IMG/VR virus record: IMGVR_UViG_3300027687_000083
Span: 1-22,237 of that record
Source of the DNA: a virus
Length of the DNA stretch: 22,237 nt
Direction: 5' to 3' (one strand)
The position numbers and the translations under genes were made by a program. Under the pieces are notes generated by a model. That model was not told the DNA's origin and did no database searches. It saw only the letters and a program-made list of their open reading frames with translations. Shown here piece by piece: positions 1,944-20,651 of the stretch (position 1 is the first letter of the stretch; the number at the start of each line of letters is the position of its first letter).

Positions 1944-1965
1944 TAGAGGGTTTAAACGCCCTCTA
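1944..1965 (+). promoter_or_regulatory. Stem-loop with TTTAAACG loop between SSB-like and DUF3310 genes
   Basis: TAGAGGG (1944-1950) pairs perfectly with CCCTCTA (1959-1965) around the 8-base loop TTTAAACG. Beyond one mismatch, AA/TT can add two more pairs. No strong U tract follows, so it is a weak terminator at best. It could set mRNA stability or partly separate the upstream genes from those downstream. The loop shares the 12-mer GGGTTTAAACGC (1948-1959) with the hairpin at 4605-4626. Confidence 0.6.
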
Positions 1966-1981
1966 TTTAATGGAGATAAAT

Positions 1982-2275
1982 ATGAGTGAAGAAAAGATAA
2001 ACCCAAGCCATTACCAATCATCTACAGGGTTAGAATGTATAGAATGTGTAGAGGCAGTTGTAGAAAATTTAATTGGGGTCGAAGCTACGGATACAGGAAA
2101 TATTATGAAGTATCTCTGGCGGTGGAAAAACAAAGAAGGCTCAACAGACCTAAAAAAAGCAAGGTGGTATCTTGACCATTTAATAGCTCATGTAGATAAT
2201 GATACTGATAAAATTAAGACAATGGAAGAGATTTTAATAGACCAACAATTTGATGAATTACATGACGAAGATTAA
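1982..2275 (+). CDS. DUF3310 protein (phage nucleotide kinase-like annotation)
   Basis: The protein is 97 residues from the ATG at 1982. I prefer this start to the ATG at 1970 because GGAG (1972-1975) sits at the right distance before it. The family signature is clear: N-P-S-H-Y near the start, then L-E-C-I-E-C-V-E-A-V, then the conserved G-N-I-M-K-Y-L-W-R-W, and D-L-K-K-A-R-W-Y-L-D-H-L. DUF3310 is widespread in phages and often labelled a nucleotide kinase, but this small domain has no P-loop and its activity is not established by sequence. Its end overlaps the next small gene by 14 bases. Confidence 0.88.
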   Translation: MSEEKINPSHYQSSTGLECIECVEAVVENLIGVEATDTGNIMKYLWRWKNKEGSTDLKKARWYLDHLIAHVDNDTDKIKTMEEILIDQQFDELHDED

Positions 2276-2417
2276 GTACGGAGAGCCATTTTTATGTCAT
2301 AGTTGCAGTAGTGAAGCAATGTTTATGGATAAAGACAAAAAGTGGTGGTGTTTTTTTAATTGGAAAGATTCAAAGGAACATTATGGAATCTGCAAAGCAA
2401 ATAATAATAATACCTAA
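2262..2417 (+). CDS. Small four-cysteine WWC zinc-binding protein, copy 1 (51 aa)
   Basis: This gene starts at ATG 2262, inside the end of the DUF3310 gene. Its 51 residues contain C-H-S-C (12-15), W-W-C (28-30) and G-I-C (42-44), giving four cysteines spaced like a small zinc ribbon. The downstream gene encodes a protein with the same order: C-x-x-C, then A, then W-W-C, then G-Y-C. That shared pattern is the main reason to accept this frame over the overlapping open frame that begins at 2311. I know no named family. A role in nucleic-acid or protein contact is typical of such ribbons but is not shown here. Confidence 0.7.
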   Translation: MTKIKYGEPFLCHSCSSEAMFMDKDKKWWCFFNWKDSKEHYGICKANNNNT

Positions 2418-2565
2418 AAATCCAATATGTAATGTATGTGGTAAAAGTGCTAAAATATATTTCATGAAACAATGGTGGTGTAGTTTAGATTCTAAAATAG
2501 GTTTGTTTAATACAAATGGTTATTGCAGTAAAGGGAATAAAAATGATAAATTGCCCAAAGTGTAA
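2383..2565 (+). CDS. Small four-cysteine WWC zinc-binding protein, copy 2 (60 aa)
   Basis: The start is ATG 2383 because AAAGGA (2372-2377) lies five bases upstream. The frame is open from 2311, but that extension has no such signal and runs through copy 1. The 60-residue product has P-I-C-N-V-C-G near residue 14, Q-W-W-C near 30 and G-Y-C-S-K-G near 46. It matches copy 1 in motif order and spacing, with an insertion before the last cysteine, so the two look like diverged tandem paralogues. It overlaps copy 1 by 35 bases and the next gene by 23. Function unknown. Confidence 0.75.
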   Translation: MESAKQIIIIPKNPICNVCGKSAKIYFMKQWWCSLDSKIGLFNTNGYCSKGNKNDKLPKV

Positions 2566-2737
2566 AGATATAAAAATGATATGGGGTGGCGACCATGACA
2601 ATGATGACGAAAATGACAAGCAATATTTAATTATGTCTAACTTTAGTTGTCCCAATTGTAAAACAATAGTATATGTAAATTGGAGTGAAAAAGATGGTAA
2701 AAGAAAAGAAAGAAATAAAAAAATGGATGGAACATAA
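2543..2737 (+). CDS. Small zinc-ribbon protein (64 aa)
   Basis: Start ATG 2543 has AAGGGA six bases upstream and places C-P-K-C at residues 4-7, as is usual for a zinc ribbon. A longer in-frame start at 2516 would put extra residues in front without a better signal. The second knuckle is C-P-N-C in the middle of the protein. Between the knuckles lies an acidic loop (G-D-H-D-N-D-D-E-N-D). The tail is lysine- and arginine-rich, suggesting nucleic-acid contact. It overlaps both neighbours (23 and 44 bases). No named family recognised. Confidence 0.78.
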   Translation: MINCPKCKDIKMIWGGDHDNDDENDKQYLIMSNFSCPNCKTIVYVNWSEKDGKRKERNKKMDGT

Positions 2738-2846
2738 ATGGATATTTGAGGGGTGGAATTACACTATGAGGTTTAATGATAAAGAGTTTAATGTTACACA
2801 CGAACCAACAGGGAAAGTTATAACTAAAGGAAAATTTAAGGAGTAA
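2694..2846 (+). CDS. Small basic/aromatic hypothetical protein (50 aa)
   Basis: ATG 2694 lies inside the zinc-ribbon gene in another frame, with GGAG (2682-2685) eight bases before it. The 50-residue product begins with a lysine-rich helix (M-V-K-E-K-K-E-I-K-K-W-M-E) and then has aromatic residues typical of a small beta sheet (W-I-F-E-G-W-N-Y-T-M-R-F). It ends with a second basic stretch. Its stop is three bases before the ATG of the next gene, whose AAGGAG lies within this coding end, so the two are tightly coupled. I do not recognise a family. The signal-plus-spacing pattern supports expression. Confidence 0.65.
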   Translation: MVKEKKEIKKWMEHKWIFEGWNYTMRFNDKEFNVTHEPTGKVITKGKFKE

Positions 2847-2849
2847 ATT

Positions 2850-3077
2850 ATGTTAGCTGAATTTGTTTTAATAATAAGCATGACAGCACCATTAGAAACT
2901 TGGGAATATAAAGGTCATTTTATGAACTGTAATCAGGCAACTATTTGGCAACAAATGCACTACCCAAAAGCCAAAGCAACAAGATGTTTGCTAGAAAAAT
3001 ATATTGCATTACCTAAAGCAACTAAAAAAAGAACTTATGACATAAGGGATGGAAAAAATGGGAAAAGGCTCAAGTAG
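2850..3077 (+). CDS. Small, possibly exported protein with two cysteines (75 aa)
   Basis: An AAGGAG at 2838-2843 gives a strong start. The first 13 residues are hydrophobic (L-A-E-F-V-L-I-I-S-M-T-A-P) and could act as a short signal or membrane anchor, although the basic residues normally preceding a signal core are missing. The remainder has C27 and C46, which could form a disulfide outside the cytoplasm, and a basic C-terminus. A small protein of this kind in an early block might act at the host envelope, but this is speculation. It overlaps the next small gene by 20 bases. Confidence 0.7.
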   Translation: MLAEFVLIISMTAPLETWEYKGHFMNCNQATIWQQMHYPKAKATRCLLEKYIALPKATKKRTYDIRDGKNGKRLK

Positions 3078-3192
3078 AAGACCAACAGACGATAAAAAGT
3101 TTGTTGATAATTATGACCGAATTTTTAACAACAAAAAGGAAAGACATGGCGATAAGTCCAACACAAAGAACACTAAAAAGACTGCGAGATAG
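3058..3192 (+). CDS. MGKGS-type conserved phage micro-protein (44 aa)
   Basis: ATG 3058 opens a 44-codon frame ending at TAG 3190-3192. It begins M-G-K-G-S-S-R-R-P-T-D-D-K-K-F and continues N-Y-D-R-I-F. I recognise this as a small phage protein type that starts MGKGS, is followed by R-R/Q-R-P, and then a short acidic-aromatic segment N-Y-D-x-I-F. The remainder is a basic tail. It overlaps the preceding gene by 20 bases and the nuclease gene by 47, so all three forward frames are used within 135 bases. GGGATGGA just upstream provides a ribosome binding site. Function is unknown, and the very basic composition suggests nucleic-acid binding. Confidence 0.8.
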   Translation: MGKGSSRRPTDDKKFVDNYDRIFNNKKERHGDKSNTKNTKKTAR

Positions 3193-3469
3193 TGGAGATT
3201 ATCCATTAGTTACCATCGTAGAAAGATGGAACGCATGGGCAAAAATTCGTCAAGACCTCTTCGGCATTATAGATATTTTGGCAATAGATAGTAAGGGAAA
3301 TACTGTTGGAATTCAAGTAACGACAAAAGGTAACATGGGGGCAAGAGTTAAAAAGATAGCAGACCACGAATCAACGCCTCATTTGCGTGATGCAAATTGG
3401 ATAATTTTAGTTGAAGGATGGGAAAAAGAATCAAACAGGTGGAAGTCTAATATTATAGATTTATCTTAA
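3146..3469 (+). CDS. Small PD-(D/E)XK-type nuclease, resolvase-like
   Basis: The product is 107 residues from ATG 3146, which has AAGGA five bases upstream. The frame is open to 3101, but that extension has no comparable signal. The fold signature is the strand pair F-G-I-I-D-I-L-A-I-D and V-G-I-Q-V-T-T, where the Asp and the Gln/Thr positions match the D and (E/Q)-x-K/T active site of VRR-Nuc and Hjc-like nucleases. The following G-A-R-V-K-K-I fits a DNA-binding helix. Small proteins of this type are common in marine phages. Action on branched or damaged DNA is inferred from the fold. The final Lys of the motif is replaced by Thr, so activity is less certain. Confidence 0.7.
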   Translation: MAISPTQRTLKRLRDSGDYPLVTIVERWNAWAKIRQDLFGIIDILAIDSKGNTVGIQVTTKGNMGARVKKIADHESTPHLRDANWIILVEGWEKESNRWKSNIIDLS

Positions 3470-3486
3470 TTAAGGAGATTATTTAA

Positions 3487-3711
3487 ATGAAAACAAGAAA
3501 GTTTACAGAAGAAGAAGAACAGGTTTTTATTGACCGAGCAAAAGATTTCATGCAAAGAAAACCAGAAGCAAGTAGAGCAAGAGTTGCAGTTTATGCAGGA
3601 GTAGGCATTGGAGTTCTTGAAAGGTTAGGGAAGAGAGATGGATTTAAATTACCTGAACCTATGACATCTAAACAAAGTAAACCTCTTAAAAAGAACTGGG
3701 GTGCTTTTTGA
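3487..3711 (+). CDS. Small putative DNA-binding (HTH-like) protein
   Basis: This 74-residue protein is preceded by a strong AAGGAG site. It has an acidic N-terminal helix (F-T-E-E-E-E-Q-V-F-I-D-R-A), then A-S-R-A-R-V-A-V-Y-A-G-V-G-I-G-V-L-E-R-L. That second segment reads like two helices joined by a glycine turn, as in a helix-turn-helix. A basic tail follows. This suggests a small DNA-binding regulator, but it matches no family I can name and the helix assignment is by eye. Its stop overlaps the TTG start of the next gene by three bases. Confidence 0.6.
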   Translation: MKTRKFTEEEEQVFIDRAKDFMQRKPEASRARVAVYAGVGIGVLERLGKRDGFKLPEPMTSKQSKPLKKNWGAF

Positions 3712-4034
3712 GGATTGCTAGATTAACACATATATTAGAGGACTGGGCTCGTTGGATGAAAACAGATTCTCATAAATTAGGTTATCCTAGCAAAACTTCT
3801 TACTTATCTTCTGGCGGAGAATCTACTTCAGATGTTTTTGAACATATGCTAAAGGAGTCAGACAATAATAATGTAAAGATACTTAATGCTTGTATAGATA
3901 GTTTACCTAAAGGACAGATACAGGCAATACATTATAAATGGCTAGGTGGTAATAAACCAATATTTTATGAAAAGAATTTAGATTTAGGAATAGATAATTT
4001 ATTAACGATAGTAGGAAAAAGAATATATGCTTAA
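3708..4034 (+). CDS. Putative phage regulator with LEDWARW motif, TTG start
   Basis: The 108-residue frame begins at TTG 3708, overlapping the preceding stop (TTGA). I keep this rare start because the conserved-looking L-E-D-W-A-R-W-M lies before the first internal ATG. The C-terminal half has I-L-N-A-C-I-D-S-L-P-K-G-Q-I-Q-A-I-H-Y-K-W-L-G. That resembles the region of ArpU/RinA or Q-like phage late regulators, in which a helical pair precedes Y-x-x-G. The similarity is weak, so a late-transcription role is a hypothesis supported only by position at the end of the early block. It overlaps the next gene by eight bases. Confidence 0.5.
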   Translation: MRIARLTHILEDWARWMKTDSHKLGYPSKTSYLSSGGESTSDVFEHMLKESDNNNVKILNACIDSLPKGQIQAIHYKWLGGNKPIFYEKNLDLGIDNLLTIVGKRIYA

Positions 4035-4569
4035 TATTAAATTAGAAGAAAGAATTTTTACTCGTTCTGTTCAATTCCAACAAGAGAATGATATTGGTAT
4101 GAGAGGTCATGCTGATGGAAATAAAGAAGAACAACTAACAGGAATATTAGGACAGAATATTATTTGTAATGCTTTAAATATTCCACTAATGGTTGGAGAT
4201 GGTTTTGATGATGGTGTAGATATTACTTTAAATGACTCAACAATTGATATAAAAACAATGGGTAGAAATGTTTATCCAAAACCTTATTATGTAAATAATT
4301 TAATAGCAAGCCAATTAAAATACAATGTAGGTAATTATTTATTTTGTAGTTATCATAAAAAAGATAATGTCTTAACTGTTTGTGGGTGGATAGATAAAAA
4401 AGGTTTTAAAGATAAAGCTAAATTTTACAAAGAAGGAGAAGTTAGAACAAGAAGTAATGGCACTAGCTTTATTACTAAAGCAGATTTATATGAAATAGAA
4501 AATAAAGAATTAAATAATATTAGTAATTACAGGGATTTATTAGGGGTAGGTTACCCCTTACCTAGCTAA
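4027..4569 (+). CDS. PD-(D/E)XK endonuclease-like protein
   Basis: This is the last gene of the rightward block, 180 residues. The fold is indicated by an acidic helix (N-K-E-E-Q-L-T-G-I-L-G-Q, residues 32-43), then D-D-G-V-D-I (61-66) and I-D-I-K-T-M (73-78), which gives the D...(D/E)-x-K active site. A basic segment with R-T-R-S follows. No specific subfamily (resolvase, restriction-like or packaging endonuclease) is obvious. It overlaps the previous gene by eight bases. Host DNA breakdown or branch processing would fit an early block, but this is inference. The three catalytic-type residues are all present. Confidence 0.65.
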   Translation: MLNIKLEERIFTRSVQFQQENDIGMRGHADGNKEEQLTGILGQNIICNALNIPLMVGDGFDDGVDITLNDSTIDIKTMGRNVYPKPYYVNNLIASQLKYNVGNYLFCSYHKKDNVLTVCGWIDKKGFKDKAKFYKEGEVRTRSNGTSFITKADLYEIENKELNNISNYRDLLGVGYPLPS

Positions 4570-4570
4570 T

Positions 4571-4608
4571 TTAAATTGCTTACAAGGCGATTGTGAAGGT
4601 CAATTTAA
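4571..4608. terminator. Long stem-loop in the convergent gap, possible bidirectional terminator
   Basis: TTAAATTG (4571-4578) is perfectly complementary to CAATTTAA (4601-4608). Inside it, CTT/AAG and ACAA/TTGT extend the stem around the loop GGCGA, with two small bulges (GT and G). It fills most of the 53-base gap between the two converging operons, the expected place for a bidirectional terminator. The U tracts on both sides are poor, so it may instead be a roadblock or RNA-stability structure. Confidence 0.5.
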
Positions 4609-4626
4609 TGGGTTTAAACGCATTAA
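4605..4626. promoter_or_regulatory. Second hairpin with GGTTTAAACG loop at the operon convergence
   Basis: TTAATG (4605-4610) pairs with CATTAA (4621-4626) around the 10-base loop GGTTTAAACG. It overlaps the larger stem-loop at 4571-4608 by four bases, so the two cannot form together. It also includes the stop codon of the leftward gene ending at 4623. The loop shares the 12-mer GGGTTTAAACGC (4610-4621) with the hairpin at 1944-1965. Confidence 0.45.
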
Positions 4627-4784
4627 TCGTCTAAATCTTGGATATTCATGTAAATGCTATCAACAATCATTTCAACAGTAGACCCATCAGATAAAGTAAT
4701 AATCATTTCAGATTCATTGCCTACTACCTCTACATTTTCTATTGTTTTGTCTATCATGTGTAGAGCAATTAAATCAACATTCAT
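4623..4784 (-). CDS. Small acidic hypothetical protein (53 aa), last gene of late block
   Basis: The start is ATG at 4784 because AAGGA lies upstream at normal distance and the longer frame (to 4865) runs into the endonuclease VII gene. The product is acidic. A beta hairpin is likely around M-I-I-T-L-S-D-G-S-T-V-E-M-I-V. It ends in an acidic tail (I-Q-D-L-D-D). It follows endonuclease VII with an 11-base gap and is the final gene before the convergent gap. No family recognised. Confidence 0.65.
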   Translation of the reverse strand: MNVDLIALHMIDKTIENVEVVGNESEMIITLSDGSTVEMIVDSIYMNIQDLDD

Positions 4785-4795
4785 TTTAATTTTCC

Positions 4796-5263
4796 TTATA
4801 TGGGTATAACCAAGTTGGATTTTGTTGTATTTTTTGTTTTTCTTAATTTGCTCCAGCTTTGGCAACTTTTCTCCATATATTTAATAGCACTTTTCATTGC
4901 TGTTATATCGTCCTTAAAACAACCCAATGCTTTATTACATTGGTTACATAATAACCCTCTTACCATTTTTGTTTCATGGCAATGGTCTATTACACCTTGA
5001 TTGATTGCTAGATTTACATTCTTTTTAACTTTTATATTACATATATTACATTTATTATTATGACTTTTAAAAAAAGCATCTCGTTCTTTTAAGGTAAAAT
5101 TGTATTGCCTTTTATAATAAGCCTCAAGATTGTATTTTTTTCTTTCAGTCTTGTTATTAGCATAAAATTCTTTATCTCTTTTTCTACAACAAGAAATACA
5201 AGTATTATTAGGAACTTTATAAAAATCATCTTTAATTTTATTACATAAATTACAAAGTTTCAT
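4796..5263 (-). CDS. Recombination endonuclease VII family (HNH) protein
   Basis: The 155-residue protein has the endonuclease VII signature D-H-C-H (93-96), R-G-L-L-C-N-Q-C-N (102-110) and A-L-G (112-114). The zinc pair C-N-I-C (72-75) joins C106/C109. An extra N-terminal C-N-L-C (4-7) with C-I-S-C-C (22-26) forms a probable second zinc knuckle, and a basic linker precedes the nuclease domain. T4 endonuclease VII resolves branched DNA before packaging, so a late position makes sense. A mobile HNH element cannot be ruled out because many phage HNH genes move, but no disrupted gene is seen around it. Confidence 0.85.
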   Translation of the reverse strand: MKLCNLCNKIKDDFYKVPNNTCISCCRKRDKEFYANNKTERKKYNLEAYYKRQYNFTLKERDAFFKSHNNKCNICNIKVKKNVNLAINQGVIDHCHETKMVRGLLCNQCNKALGCFKDDITAMKSAIKYMEKSCQSWSKLRKTKNTTKSNLVIPI

Positions 5264-8988: not shown

Positions 8989-10635
8989 TTAATTCCTTAA
9001 CTGTTTAAGAAGTTCAAAGGCTTTTATCTGTAATGATTCTATTCGTTGCTCTACTGGAGCTAAATCATTATCTACTTCTACAGACTCTCCTGTTATTGGG
9101 TCAAATCCACCCCTCATCAAGGCTTCTTCAAGAGTATCTGCATAATCTCCATCAGAGCCAAAACTTTTATAAAGATGAGCTGCGGAAGGTAGATTACTTT
9201 TTTTAAATTCAGCTTGTCCGTAATCTGCAATATAAACTCCATTATAATAATCTGAAACTTCTTTAGATTTTTGGTATAGGTCTTTTAATGCTACATACAT
9301 ATTTCCACCAGAACCAGTTATGTCAAGAAATTGCTCCATATTTTGAAACATTGCAACCTCTTTGTCAGATACATTACCTACAGCACCACCAGTTTTGTTT
9401 GCATTTCTCATTGCAGTAATACCAGCAGTAAATTGTTTTGCTTTTAATGTTTCTATAAAGTTTTTAACATCTTGTGCATCTCCACCAAATTCAGCAAACC
9501 AACCAGCAGTCATTTCATTAAATTTAACTCTAAATCTACCGCCAGTAGTAAATAACTTTTTAAGAGTTTCTGGTTTACTCATTATCTTTTCAATATTTCT
9601 TTGTAAATCTTTATTTGCAGCTATACCAAACCGAAGAATTTTTTGGTCAGATACTTTATCATTTGAAATCTCATTATATTTTTTTAAATATTGGTCTTTA
9701 TTCATAGCTGGATTGTGCATAAGAATTTCTCTTCTGCCTAGATTGTTAAATTCATCTCTAGTATATCTTTCCCCACCCATACCATGATATATATCTTTTC
9801 CATCAACCTGTTTAAACCCAACAAATTTTTCATTTTGAGAATAATTATTTTTATTATTATATTCTTCAGTGAAATTTCTATTGTTGTTTTTATTTAATTT
9901 ATTATTATTTATTAAACTTTTTGCAAATTCTAATTTTCCTGTTACATAATTAGGATTGTAATTAGATGGGTCGGCTGCTTGTTTTGCTTGTTCTAACACA
10001 TTATGCCTGTCTGCTGCTTCTTGTGGCATAGTTAAATTATACTCACGAATAATATTTACTTTATCTTCTGGTATTTGAAACCTATTTGGTACACCTATAG
10101 ACTCATAAAATATCCTGTCTTGTTGAGTAATTGGGCGATTGTTATAAAAAGCCTTTGGTCCAACTGTAGCTAGTTCATATTGTTCATGTTCTGGAAGTGT
10201 TTTAATTAATCTTTTAATTCCATCTATTTGAGTGTCTGAAAGTATACTTTTATTTTTTGCTTCAGATGTTTCATAACCTAACTTTTTTGACTTTAAAGGA
10301 GCATCTGCTTCTGCATACTCATTAAGCCTAATATCTTGATTCAGCTTTCTATTTTTTAATGTTTGAGTAAGTATCTCTTGCTGGGTCATATAACCTTTTG
10401 TTTCTTTATCTATAACCCCTTGTCTACCAACTTTTGCACCTACTGCCATTTCTAAAGCAATTTGTGCGGCACTTTTTCTTCCATATCCTGTTATAAGTGG
10501 AGCTAATGCCCCAAAACCTGCGGCTACATTTTTTTGTGAATCCATATTAGGATTATCTAATAAAGCATTAACAGGACTAGCTGTTACGCCTAACATTTTA
10601 TCTAAATCAAAATCATAGTCTAGTAATGATGCCAT
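8989..10635 (-). CDS. Internal virion protein (T7 gp15-position ejection protein)
   Basis: The 548-residue protein is predicted mostly helical and charged. It contains a conserved-looking segment, T-G-G-A-V-G-N-V-S-D-K-E, after a helix with A-G-I-T-A-M-R-N-A, a combination often seen in large podovirus internal proteins. The N-terminus (N-V-A-A-G-F-G-A-L-A-P-L-I-T-G-Y-G-R-K-S-A-A-Q) is small-residue-rich. It lies between a glycine-rich virion protein and the 676-residue partner with two-base gaps on both sides. It likely travels in the capsid and is injected. No enzymatic motif was seen. Confidence 0.68.
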   Translation of the reverse strand: MASLLDYDFDLDKMLGVTASPVNALLDNPNMDSQKNVAAGFGALAPLITGYGRKSAAQIALEMAVGAKVGRQGVIDKETKGYMTQQEILTQTLKNRKLNQDIRLNEYAEADAPLKSKKLGYETSEAKNKSILSDTQIDGIKRLIKTLPEHEQYELATVGPKAFYNNRPITQQDRIFYESIGVPNRFQIPEDKVNIIREYNLTMPQEAADRHNVLEQAKQAADPSNYNPNYVTGKLEFAKSLINNNKLNKNNNRNFTEEYNNKNNYSQNEKFVGFKQVDGKDIYHGMGGERYTRDEFNNLGRREILMHNPAMNKDQYLKKYNEISNDKVSDQKILRFGIAANKDLQRNIEKIMSKPETLKKLFTTGGRFRVKFNEMTAGWFAEFGGDAQDVKNFIETLKAKQFTAGITAMRNANKTGGAVGNVSDKEVAMFQNMEQFLDITGSGGNMYVALKDLYQKSKEVSDYYNGVYIADYGQAEFKKSNLPSAAHLYKSFGSDGDYADTLEEALMRGGFDPITGESVEVDNDLAPVEQRIESLQIKAFELLKQLRN

Positions 10636-13210: not shown

Positions 13211-13671
13211 TATCTAGTGCCTTTTTTAAAATTATCTAATAAACCTTTTTGTTTAGCATAAGATGTATAAGTCATCATAGGTTCATTTATAACCATAGCA
13301 CGATTTTTTTCTATTGCTTCTTTAGCTAATCTAACAGTATCTTCATAAGATTGACTTTGCTCACCTATGTTTATTCCAATTGCATTATTATATAAATCCA
13401 TTTTTTTTTCTTCTTCAGTTTGCAACGGATGTGCTGCACCTAATATTCCTAAAGGTAATTTTACATTTTCGTGATAATCACTAACCATTTGAGATATTGT
13501 TGGATTTGTTTTTCTTGCCATTTCTGCTGTCCATAATAAATGCCTGTAAGCATCTGCTTCATTATTTACATTTACACCAGTTTGACTTCCATAAGTATCA
13601 ACAGCTTCATTTATATATTGATTCCCATGTATTGTTTGTGCATAATCTTTTAACTTATTAAACCAATCCAT
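13210..13671 (-). CDS. DUF6973-like domain protein, possible metal-dependent enzyme in tail cluster
   Basis: The 153-residue protein carries A-D-A-Y-R-H-L-L-W-T-A-E-M-A, then D-Y-H-E, and then K-M-D-L-Y-N-N-A-I-G. This order of D-A-x-R-H, H-E and M-D-L-x-N-N-x-x-G is the pattern I associate with DUF6973, a domain often found in effector-like and phage proteins. The conserved His, Asp and Asn residues look like a metal site. It overlaps both neighbours by one base within the tail cluster, so it may be a virion-borne enzyme acting on the envelope. Family assignment is from memory and activity is inferred. Confidence 0.6.
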   Translation of the reverse strand: MDWFNKLKDYAQTIHGNQYINEAVDTYGSQTGVNVNNEADAYRHLLWTAEMARKTNPTISQMVSDYHENVKLPLGILGAAHPLQTEEEKKMDLYNNAIGINIGEQSQSYEDTVRLAKEAIEKNRAMVINEPMMTYTSYAKQKGLLDNFKKGTR

Positions 13672-15104
13672 TATCTAGTGCCTTGTGGCTTAAAGTCTAC
13701 ATCTATAGCCATAGCATTTGTCCATGAGCCTGTAGGTTTAACAGATACCCTGTGATATCTACCACCAGTTCTTACATTAGCTCTACCTTCTGATGTTGTA
13801 GATACTGTAGCACCAAAAATAATAGAATCATCTAATTCTCTGCGACTAGCAACTGCTATATCTGCACTTCCATTATCTATCTGTGGTCTTATTAAATTAA
13901 TTACAGAATTGTACCCATCTTCTAAATCAGTAGTAACTAATTCAGAGTTATATGTTGAGCCTGTAAATGTAGATATTTTTGTATCTGTAGCACCAGCAAA
14001 TAAGAATTTACCACCTACCCAAAGTCGTGCATCTAAACTTGCTGGCATAACATCTATGTCGGTGTACCCTAGAGTACCTAATCCTTCTAAAGTCGTTCCT
14101 ATGGTCGCTATATTGCCTAAAACATTAGCTGTGGTTTCTACTCTTGACCATTTACCTAATGTCCAATTATAAACCAACATACTTCTTCCACCAGCTACAT
14201 TAGCATAATTCCATATTGCAATATTTAATGCAGGGTTTATAGAAGCACTCATGTTATCTAGTAATGACAAATCAACATCATCAAAAAACCACCTGTCTAT
14301 TTTTTCATTTCCAATAGGAGTTACTTGACTACCATCACAACTATAAAATCCATCATCACTTAAAAAGAATGACACTTGATTATATTGGCAAATAGAATTT
14401 CCGTTTAAACAACCTAATCCTCTTGAGATATTGTCAAATTGGAAGAATAATGGTGAGCCTACATAAGACATTAATTGAATTGATTTTTCTAAAAATACTA
14501 AACCAAATTCTCCACCTGTAAGACCTACAACATTACCACCATCTGCGATTACTTGTAAATCTGATTGTGATGTAGAGCCTGCTGCCCAATCAGTTTCATC
14601 ATTGATATCTGACCATCTTACTGTAGAGCGACCTAAAGCTCCTGTTGCTAAACTTCCTGTTACTACAAAATCCCTTACTACTGTTATTTGTTTTGCTGTA
14701 GGAGAAGTTGCTACATCTGCCCATACAGTTGAAGTTCCTATAGTCCAGTATTGAATTTTAGCTGTACCATTTACAGCAAGAACTGTTTTACCAAATTGAG
14801 TAAATTTCCAAGCAAATGCACTTGTATATCCACCTGATTTAGATTTATCTTCTAATGCTTCTGTAGATGAATTAAACTTAAATAATTTAGTAGCTCCACC
14901 TGCAAATAATACTACTTCTGTATCATATTTTGCTACATAAACAGAGTTTAAATTTTCAGATGCTGCACCACTAAAATCTTCTGCATTAGGAAAGGGTTGA
15001 TAGCCAATAGATACTGGTGTTACATTTTTAGCTTCATTTAATGCACCTGAATTATCAGGTTGGTCTGGTAGCCAATCTGTAAACTGCACTCTTTTAGTTG
15101 CCAT
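13671..15104 (-). CDS. Tail hub/stabilisation protein, P22 gp10-like beta-propeller
   Basis: The 477-residue protein has repeated strand-rich blades. The marker segment is R-W-S-D-I-N-D-E-T-D-W, followed by L-Q-V-I-A-D-G-G-N-V-V-G-L and L-V-F-L-E-K-S-I-Q. It is typical of the packaged-DNA stabilisation protein gp10 family, which closes the portal channel and joins it to the tail needle or fibres. The N-terminus (V-Q-F-T-D-W-L-P-D-Q-P) is also characteristic. Position between the fibre genes and the ejection proteins fits a tail hub. Neighbours overlap by one base at each end. Confidence 0.75.
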   Translation of the reverse strand: MATKRVQFTDWLPDQPDNSGALNEAKNVTPVSIGYQPFPNAEDFSGAASENLNSVYVAKYDTEVVLFAGGATKLFKFNSSTEALEDKSKSGGYTSAFAWKFTQFGKTVLAVNGTAKIQYWTIGTSTVWADVATSPTAKQITVVRDFVVTGSLATGALGRSTVRWSDINDETDWAAGSTSQSDLQVIADGGNVVGLTGGEFGLVFLEKSIQLMSYVGSPLFFQFDNISRGLGCLNGNSICQYNQVSFFLSDDGFYSCDGSQVTPIGNEKIDRWFFDDVDLSLLDNMSASINPALNIAIWNYANVAGGRSMLVYNWTLGKWSRVETTANVLGNIATIGTTLEGLGTLGYTDIDVMPASLDARLWVGGKFLFAGATDTKISTFTGSTYNSELVTTDLEDGYNSVINLIRPQIDNGSADIAVASRRELDDSIIFGATVSTTSEGRANVRTGGRYHRVSVKPTGSWTNAMAIDVDFKPQGTR

Positions 15105-16981: not shown

Positions 16982-17218
16982 TTATCCCTCAATCGCTGCG
17001 TTTACTTCCGTCATGTCTTCATCTGTCCAATAGTCTTTAGCAACCATAATTTCAAGATGTCTTACATTTTGTTCTATTACATGGTTTACTTGTTCTGCTT
17101 CCATATCATCTGGATGATTTCCAGCTCTAAAGTTATTAATTAATTCTACTGAATGACCCATAGATTCATAGTGCTTTGCTATTTTTTCTTCTTCTGTTAA
17201 TACAGGTGGTTTAAACAT
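16982..17218 (-). CDS. Small acidic protein after the S74 fibre
   Basis: The 78-residue acidic, helical protein includes the segment N-V-R-H-L-E-I-M-V-A-K-D-Y-W-T-D-E-D-M, followed by a helix to the end. Proteins with this kind of R-H-L-E-I-M-x-A-K-x-Y-W segment are often found beside phage tail-fibre genes. Its start overlaps the fibre stop by one base. A fibre-assembly chaperone is a reasonable guess, but the adjacent fibre already carries its own S74 chaperone. No signal, membrane or metal motif seen. Confidence 0.6.
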   Translation of the reverse strand: MFKPPVLTEEEKIAKHYESMGHSVELINNFRAGNHPDDMEAEQVNHVIEQNVRHLEIMVAKDYWTDEDMTEVNAAIEG

Positions 17219-20360: not shown

Positions 20361-20651
20361 TTATACTTTTCCTGGTTTTGTTCTAAAAAATCTATTGTCA
20401 GGGTCATTAAGCCAATGTTTAAACTTTGGCATATCTAATACATGAAACCCTCTCATGATTCCTTGTTGGTTTAATTTATCAATAACAGTTAGTGGAATGG
20501 ATGCAATTTTATTATCAAAAACATCTCCGCCTCCCCAAGTTGTTGATGCGTTATTAAATTCGTGTTTGTTTTGTTCTACAATATCAGAAACATTTTGAAC
20601 AACTTCAACAACTGCTCCTTTGTCTGTTTTGTGTTTTTTAAATTCTCTCAT
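20361..20651 (-). CDS. Small conserved head protein between capsid and adaptor genes
   Basis: The 96-residue protein contains A-S-I-P-L-T-V-I-D-K-L and the C-terminal L-N-D-P-D-N-R-F-F-R-T-K-P-G-K-V. I recognise this W/L-N-D-P-x-N-R-x-F-R-T type of ending from small proteins that lie between the capsid and adaptor genes in marine podoviruses. The N-terminus is basic. It is separated from the capsid gene by a 57-base gap containing a hairpin. Translation starts at ATG 20651 behind AAGGAT. Role unknown; probably head assembly or a virion component. Confidence 0.7.
   Translation of the reverse strand: MREFKKHKTDKGAVVEVVQNVSDIVEQNKHEFNNASTTWGGGDVFDNKIASIPLTVIDKLNQQGIMRGFHVLDMPKFKHWLNDPDNRFFRTKPGKV

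Follow-up and report, generated by a model that had tools for sequence, protein, structure and literature searches.

A short palindromic DNA motif, the octamer GTTTAAAC, is iterated about once per kb by the phage lineage of the virus record examined here and by several unrelated phage lineages. The record (IMG/VR IMGVR_UViG_3300027687_000083, 22,237 bases, hereafter the window) is treated as a genome fragment. Genes of one phage protein family, phrog_6361, go with the motif, and such a gene often has a copy of it 11-60 bp upstream. Sequence comparison makes the phrog_6361 protein the most likely reader of the motif. The best overall explanation, which we consider quite probable, is that the zinc ribbon of this protein would bind sites of the form GTKTAAAC, repress its own gene and coat or insulate the phage DNA.

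In the window, two octamers lie within the 12-mer GGGTTTAAACGC, which is found at 1948-1959 and 4610-4621 (sites 1 and 2) and nowhere else in the record. The first copy stands in the intergenic gap 1934-1981, between an ssb-like open reading frame (ORF) and a DUF3310 ORF, and the second in the gap 4570-4622, between convergent ORFs. An earlier note on this DNA had described both as intergenic and each as part of an inverted repeat, with the stems TAGAGGG/CCCTCTA (7 bp, 8-nt loop) and TTAATG/CATTAA (6 bp, 10-nt loop), and these coordinates and stems were confirmed. Four additional octamers, absent from that note, are located in late ORFs at 9810, 14403, 17209 and 20417. The total of six compares with a mean of 0.81 in shuffled sequences, none of 100 shuffles reaching 6, and 2 of 300 order-3 Markov simulations produced a repeated, fully non-coding 12-mer of any sequence. 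By shuffles and simulations alike, the GGGTTTAAACGC repeat exceeds chance and is unlikely to be accidental. The six octamers, to which no strand is assigned, are as follows.

1950 to 1957: copy 1, in the site-1 hairpin, occupying its loop and upper stem
4612 to 4619: copy 2, where the convergent rightward and leftward transcripts meet
9810 to 9817: copy 3, within the leftward ORF 8989-10635
14403 to 14410: copy 4, within the leftward ORF 13671-15104
17209 to 17216: copy 5, sharing one base with the ATG of the leftward ORF 16982-17218
20417 to 20424: copy 6, within the leftward ORF 20361-20651

The named phage nearest to the window is the Methylophilales phage Venkman, which has an OM43 host. 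Its genome contains 34 octamers, whereas 64 palindromes of similar composition average 1.05, and 32 of the 34 are within the first 19 kb. Twelve of them are within genes, 6 in the spacer preceding a start codon, 4 on stop codons and 12 in other non-coding DNA. The numbers in further records are 33 (G006), 20 (G001), 19 (G003 and G041), 18 (G005), 12 (G012), 8 (G014), 7 (G020 and G025) and 1 (G008); G009 and G010, with which the window has the ssb-like gene in common, have none. Over 18 genomes, 178 of 621 octamer sites touch non-coding DNA where 52 are expected, and in 15 GTTTAAAC genomes 367 of 534 sites are within ORFs, in two frames. The occurrence of the octamer in ORFs and start-codon spacers as well as on stop codons points to a DNA motif. 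The motif is strict: one-base variants are near background in most octamer-rich genomes, the flanks are of the form Y...R, and the exact palindrome is in large excess over both composition and its one-base variants, as the HIP criterion for highly iterated palindromes has it. A scan for two octamers 25-55 bp apart gave, among the matches listed, many unrelated contigs with a density of 1-3 octamers per kb and a GC content that reaches about 50%. Fifty of these pair-scan records were counted: they contain up to 54 octamers each and 0-4 copies of the reversed pattern, except for one record with 9. Of the interpretation in the earlier note, selection is supported to the extent that the octamer itself looks selected.

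The excess also bears on an alternative that invokes no more than an intrinsic terminator at site 1 and a loop shared by coincidence in AT-rich DNA. Site 1 is indeed of the terminator type, and terminators are common at this place, but an excess that is genome-wide, far beyond composition and present in contigs of about 50% GC refutes this explanation for the lineage and leaves it hardly credible.

No octamers were found in the OM43 phages MEP301 and MEP401 or in the whole genome of Melnitz, nor in the capsid relatives ctXG6705 and HTVC106P. Host H5P1 is common to Melnitz and Venkman; the accessions of the OM43 phages are those given in PMC10580990, PMC8024684 and PMC9004378. Because other OM43 phages, including Melnitz from the same host, have none, the motif is taken to be a trait of the phage lineage rather than of the host, the argument being made from phage genomes and not from that of the host. 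A description of the motif was not found in open-licence PMC full text.

The candidate reader emerged from a comparison of 2,292 ORFs from 39 octamer-rich and 11 octamer-poor genomes, in which the top two families were a primase and a SprT-like protein. The SprT-like cluster is present in 26 of the 39 rich genomes and in none of the 11 poor ones. A hidden Markov model (HMM) of phrog_6361, run over 69 records, found the family in 35. Among pair-scan records of at least 17 kb, all 18 rich ones have it and none of the 8 poor ones does (Fisher 6.4e-7, kinship ignored). The 17-kb and density cuts behind these counts, like the richness rules for the loci selected by protein below, were set after the densities were seen. 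Of 24 shorter pair-scan records 12 gave a match, one of which (G093) is partial and is discounted. Four rich records (G051, G055, G056 and G063) contain stand-alone zinc ribbons, ORFs of 55-57 aa that are devoid of a SprT domain. G001, which has the same order of ssb-like gene, hairpin and DUF3310 gene as the window, carries phrog_6361.

Another co-inherited gene could read the motif, and the primase is the obvious example: its cluster is more widespread among the rich genomes than the SprT-like one (29 of 39, and 2 of 11 poor), which weighs against phrog_6361, and one of the primase queries came top when the genes were compared. However, the primase HMM matches only one (4A) of 11 named motif-carrying phages and, in addition, three poor genomes (G008, ctXG6705 and Melnitz), and the primase was set aside for this reason. 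Moreover, five rich genomes have the SprT-like gene and no primase, and it is the SprT-like gene that a motif copy adjoins. We regard a reader of this kind as very unlikely.

The association between phrog_6361 and the motif is also seen when loci are selected by protein. A stand-alone ribbon used as the query gave 79 new loci, 952 kb in total, with 1,529 copies of GTTTAAAC against 18.9 expected and an average of 7.9 for control palindromes. Sixty-nine of these loci are rich in GTTTAAAC, 7 more are rich in a related octamer, GTGTAAAC, and 3 are rich in neither. A SprT-like query from the lineage of the window gave, among the matches listed, 76 new loci with 398 GTTTAAAC against 18.5 expected, a set that includes many near relatives and some contigs recurring from earlier sets. 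In the same listed matches, 42 loci are GTTTAAAC-rich and 2 are GTGTAAAC-rich, and a copy stands at most 60 bp upstream of the match in 30 of 75 overall, where about 2 are expected from density. For the 32 listed loci that are rich in neither octamer, the corresponding number is 14.

Homologues of phrog_6361 occur in 163 phage-collection records (60 listed), including phages of E. coli, Arthrobacter and Streptomyces. Fourteen named phages besides Venkman were taken from the 163 for variety of host. Seven of them have 2-17 copies of GTTTAAAC, 4 have 13-39 copies of GTGTAAAC and the other 3 have at most one copy of either. In 6 of the 7 GTTTAAAC phages (Persinger, Mano, Arya, Bas97, Alexa and F_TK) a copy is located 24-28 bp before the gene. 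Some actinophages iterate GTGTAAAC instead of GTTTAAAC. The GTGTAAAC octamer is iterated in Wildwest (25 copies), UtzChips (23), UNTPL (39) and 4A (13), and in the first three it precedes the gene at -45, -46 and -81, respectively. It takes the place of GTTTAAAC alongside related ribbons in these four phages and in L468, L469, L471-L474, L482, L547 and L554. A comparison of ribbons that go with the two octamers gave no more than suggestive columns for the residues of specificity (7 distinct G-type ribbons). Armstrong, MW2 and Epa5 have the gene and no motif; the QxTR arm of their ribbon is changed, as is the first cysteine in MW2 and Epa5.

These results can be set against a different kind of explanation, in which DNA methylation or mismatch repair generates or targets the octamer and the ribbon protein is only a passenger. 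An exact octamer with sharp boundaries and about one copy per kb is just the form of HIP1, the highly iterated palindrome of cyanobacteria. HIP1 goes with methyltransferases (Elhai 2015, PMC4390886), and Venkman encodes a DNA methyltransferase. Such a process does not predict a copy beside the phrog_6361 gene, however, and phrog_6361 tracks the motif in both directions, whereas ctXG6705 has an annotated methyltransferase yet no octamers. A HIP1-like origin is therefore improbable, and slightly more so than the protease-delivery role considered below.

The phrog_6361 protein consists of a SprT-like (Spartan-type) domain and, C-terminal to it, a zinc ribbon that bears a K-Q-x-T-R arm. The match of Venkman gp1 to PF10263 exceeds the cut-off (E 1.3e-9), and four of six members scanned gave no match to PF10263 at E 0.1. 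The model of the L207 member (mean predicted local distance difference test score 90) aligns with 6mdw (Z 8.4, root-mean-square deviation 4.0, 103 aligned, residues 2-120) and with 6mdx_A (Z 8.4, deviation 3.1, 97 aligned), both of which we take to be human SPRTN. The SprT-like domain sometimes lacks the HExxH motif or is wholly missing. In 24 members the invariant residues are mostly C-terminal (P-H, Q, T-R, C, C) and HExxH is not among them: it is absent in G058, G060, G065, G088, G090 and L192, and kept in many others. The 55-aa ribbon is modelled, with moderate confidence (77), as a small strand-strand-helix fold. A profile search of PDB sequences with A1 gave nothing meaningful.

The retained HExxH of many members and the SPRTN-like fold raise the possibility that an active Spartan-type protease, tethered to phage DNA by the ribbon, would clear host proteins bound or cross-linked there, with the octamers as landing sites; the density of the motif would cover the length of the genome. 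Because HExxH is lost in some members and stand-alone ribbons exist, also in octamer-dense contigs, protease activity is not the general role, and we judge this delivery function to be unlikely. As the protease part can be dispensed with, we prefer to it a role in silencing, insulating or organising the DNA, tentatively and at rather less than an even chance.

The preferred reading, binding of GTKTAAAC by the phrog_6361 ribbon, can be formulated as follows. The ribbon would bind the palindrome, probably as a dimer. Through the octamer copy beside its gene, the protein would shut down its own promoter. At the dispersed copies it would act as a stoperator-like roadblock, an insulator or a DNA-organising mark. 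The motif is placed wherever the local sequence permits: in terminator loops, in the gap between ribosome site and start codon, on stop codons and in two of the three codon frames. Computation shows the iteration of the motif, its lineage specificity, its association with the gene and the copy beside that gene; binding, dimer formation, repression and role are inferred. On balance we also think it probable, with less assurance than for the explanation as a whole, that the zinc ribbons of phrog_6361 form a new family of phage proteins that bind DNA sequence-specifically, either joined to a Spartan-type protease or separate from it, and that they read GTKTAAAC sites genome-wide. The sites would then form a phage-wide mark or silencing array with an autoregulated reader, and would switch between GTTTAAAC and GTGTAAAC together with the ribbon. 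The earlier note had suggested that a protein could bind the palindrome, and such a partner is likely.

A number of observations speak against this reading. The argument for binding is one of association between reader and motif, and the gene comparison and the locus counts ignore phylogeny. No phrog_6361 gene is present in the window, which is a fragment of 22 kb; the link comes from its relatives, and the phage of the window presumably carries the gene. G005 (32.4 kb) has none, and, to judge from its ends, would also lack the genome arm that carries the gene in Venkman. The family was found in only 5 of 19 records outside the pair scan, mostly of the lineage of the window and many of them short. 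Of the 79 loci found with the ribbon, at least 9 either overlap loci of the motif-selected set or come from the same contigs, and 32 of the 76 SprT-selected loci among the matches listed meet neither richness rule. GC-rich proteobacterial phages with the gene often hold only 1-4 copies, so that iteration is not universal. The copy next to the gene is not constant either: of 32 genes in the motif-selected set, only 2 have it at most 60 bp upstream and roughly ten others have it at -62 to -73, and R5C and 4A have no copy within 150 bp of the gene. L510 and L526 are octamer-rich although their arm departs from QxTR. A fold search with the ribbon gave no match at E <= 0.001 and none at Z >= 5, and no known DNA-binding structure was matched confidently. 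Finally, octamer spacing is even in G075 and R5C only and random or clustered elsewhere.

Site 1 is a hairpin that directly follows the ssb-like gene.

1631 to 1933, + strand: ssb-like ORF, ending at site 1; our reading of its acidic ...DDSEDIPF end, no Pfam match
1944 to 1965, + strand: site-1 hairpin TAGAGGG-TTTAAACG-CCCTCTA, terminator type, short T tail TTTAATGG on the + strand
1982 to 2275, + strand: DUF3310 ORF downstream of site 1 (PF11753, E 1.6e-13)

Since the loop is the 8-nt TTTAAACG, the first G of the octamer sits in the stem. The fold is stable (-12.4 kcal/mol, z -3.3). A terminator scan called it on the - strand only, the + strand tail TTTAATGG being short and uncalled. Of 80 relatives of the ssb-like gene, 79 extend far enough past it and give 44 distinct downstream sequences; 16 of the 44 have a perfect GC-rich hairpin directly 3' of the gene, with a T-rich tail in all 16. 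Site 1 can therefore be accepted as a real hairpin, as the earlier note had proposed. The octamer is present in 3 of the 16, and both stems and loops vary widely (GGGGGC-TAACC-GCCCCC, GGGGGT-GTTTAA-ACCCCC and AGGGGG-TTTAAACAC-CCCCCT, for example). The motif at site 1 is carried by this ordinary terminator-type hairpin, which on the preferred reading is a permissive place for it.

The 27-mer at 1942-1968 recurs at another genome position in seven related contigs (L112, L113, L115, L118, L124, L132 and L140), between small genes, with a longer T run and then a TTGACA promoter-like sequence. In L158, L160 and L161, a TTGACA promoter-like sequence downstream of the terminator is surrounded by more copies of GTTTAAAC, which lie immediately behind the terminator and in the spacer leading to the next ATG. 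The idea of a common terminator loop was abandoned: TTTAAACG is frequent among terminator loops, but L105-L145 had been chosen for containing it, and the count was dropped. The 16-mer GGGTTTAAACGCCCTC, found in 41 stretches of viral_contigs that are mostly one sequence context of an unrelated phage, was likewise set aside; the 18-mer had one match in the bacterial genome collection.

Site 2 is a weak inverted repeat where early and late transcripts converge.

4605 to 4626, no strand assigned: site-2 inverted repeat TTAATG-GGTTTAAACG-CATTAA, weak and unconserved
4623 to 4802, - strand: leftward ORF whose stop codon adjoins site 2; 53 aa from the given start, 80 aa from an upstream TTG

The hairpin forms if 27 nt are folded alone (-5.0), and the whole 71-nt gap prefers another structure. 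Its stem was seen only in the window and in a contig 99.96% identical to it. At this place the octamer is retained, outside any such stem, in L014, L044, L045, L046 and L048-L050, and is absent in L086-L088, L097 and others; in Venkman and nearer relatives it is further upstream in the gap. The region 4540-4622, where the early transcript ends, is conserved (GGTAGGTTACCCC; relatives also have small hairpins such as CGCACCACGAGGCTTGTGCG), and is kept in L044-L050 and L045, where the overlapping 180-aa ORF of the window is not at this place.

The earlier note had seen in the two sites a structured RNA element, its GTTTAAAC loop kept on two differing stems and able to dimerise or be bound as RNA. 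The kept loop did not survive comparison with relatives, in which both stem and loop of site 1 vary, 13 of the 16 terminator sequences lack the octamer, and the stem of site 2 is not conserved. In the lineage of the window, 14 of 167 octamers do lie within a stem of at least 6 bp (control 1.3%), but no excess is seen in other lineages (11 of 823, control 1.2%), which makes the hairpins an extra of this lineage. With most sites also within ORFs, in two frames, an RNA element of this kind has very little probability. Rfam gave no match at gathering scores in the window or in 20 relatives.

The window otherwise has two blocks, an early one read rightward (Sak annealing protein, YqaJ exonuclease, the ssb-like ORF, DUF3310) and one read leftward (SU10-type capsid, M15 peptidase). 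ORF 3708-4034 has the same position as Venkman gp37, which is annotated as antitermination-like; the antiterminator family PF06530 had no match in the window. An RNA-like element of about 90 nt (GGTTACA...TTGA...ACTT...TGTA) is conserved just 3' of the ssb-like gene in L003-L005, L009-L012, L016, L020 and L063. Seven copies folded singly gave -28 to -41 kcal/mol, ten sequences showed changes on both sides at 2 of 12 consensus pairs, and the loci scanned had no Rfam match at gathering scores. A small convergent ORF, MWTKPSATEMRFGFEVTMYVMNK, similar to the PQQ precursor PqqA, is present unannotated in Venkman (L154:3196-3267, - strand) and in the ssb-DUF3310 gap of many relatives, and was not seen in that gap of the window.

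These findings give a motif and a candidate reader to phrog_6361, a functionally uncharacterised phage protein family with relatives in easily handled phages, and turn the old puzzle of iterated palindromes into a testable one, with a 55-residue protein and an 8-bp site. If the preferred reading is true, phages would have a means, not described before, of marking or controlling the DNA that is their own.

Among known systems, HIP1 is nearest in form and the stoperators are nearest in logic, and neither fits fully. At site 1, the GC-containing stem that immediately follows a gene, and has a T tail in relatives, resembles a Rho-independent terminator, from which it differs by a short T tract and a loop that carries an iterated octamer. 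The resemblance to SPRTN and SprT-like proteases (PF10263) lies in the sequence match of Venkman gp1 and the fold match of L207; unlike these proteases, the phage members may lose the HExxH motif or the whole domain, and conserve the zinc-ribbon end instead. HIP1 occurs at high density throughout coding and non-coding DNA, and the octamer shares with it an exact 8-bp palindrome that is frequent in both, here about once per kb. In contrast to HIP1, the motif described here is found in phages, is AT-centred, is correlated with a SprT-like/zinc-ribbon protein rather than a methyltransferase, and often has a copy beside the gene of that protein. Stoperators keep a fixed orientation to transcription, whereas GTTTAAAC is symmetric, its candidate reader is a zinc ribbon, and the orientation of GTGTAAAC is mixed in three phages (same/opposite to the gene 9/14, 8/13 and 14/18). 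The mycobacteriophage stoperators are many genome sites, asymmetric in sequence, for one phage-encoded repressor, as described in PMC9283540. It is this arrangement, numerous sites across a phage genome for a single phage-encoded protein, that the octamer and its putative reader would share.

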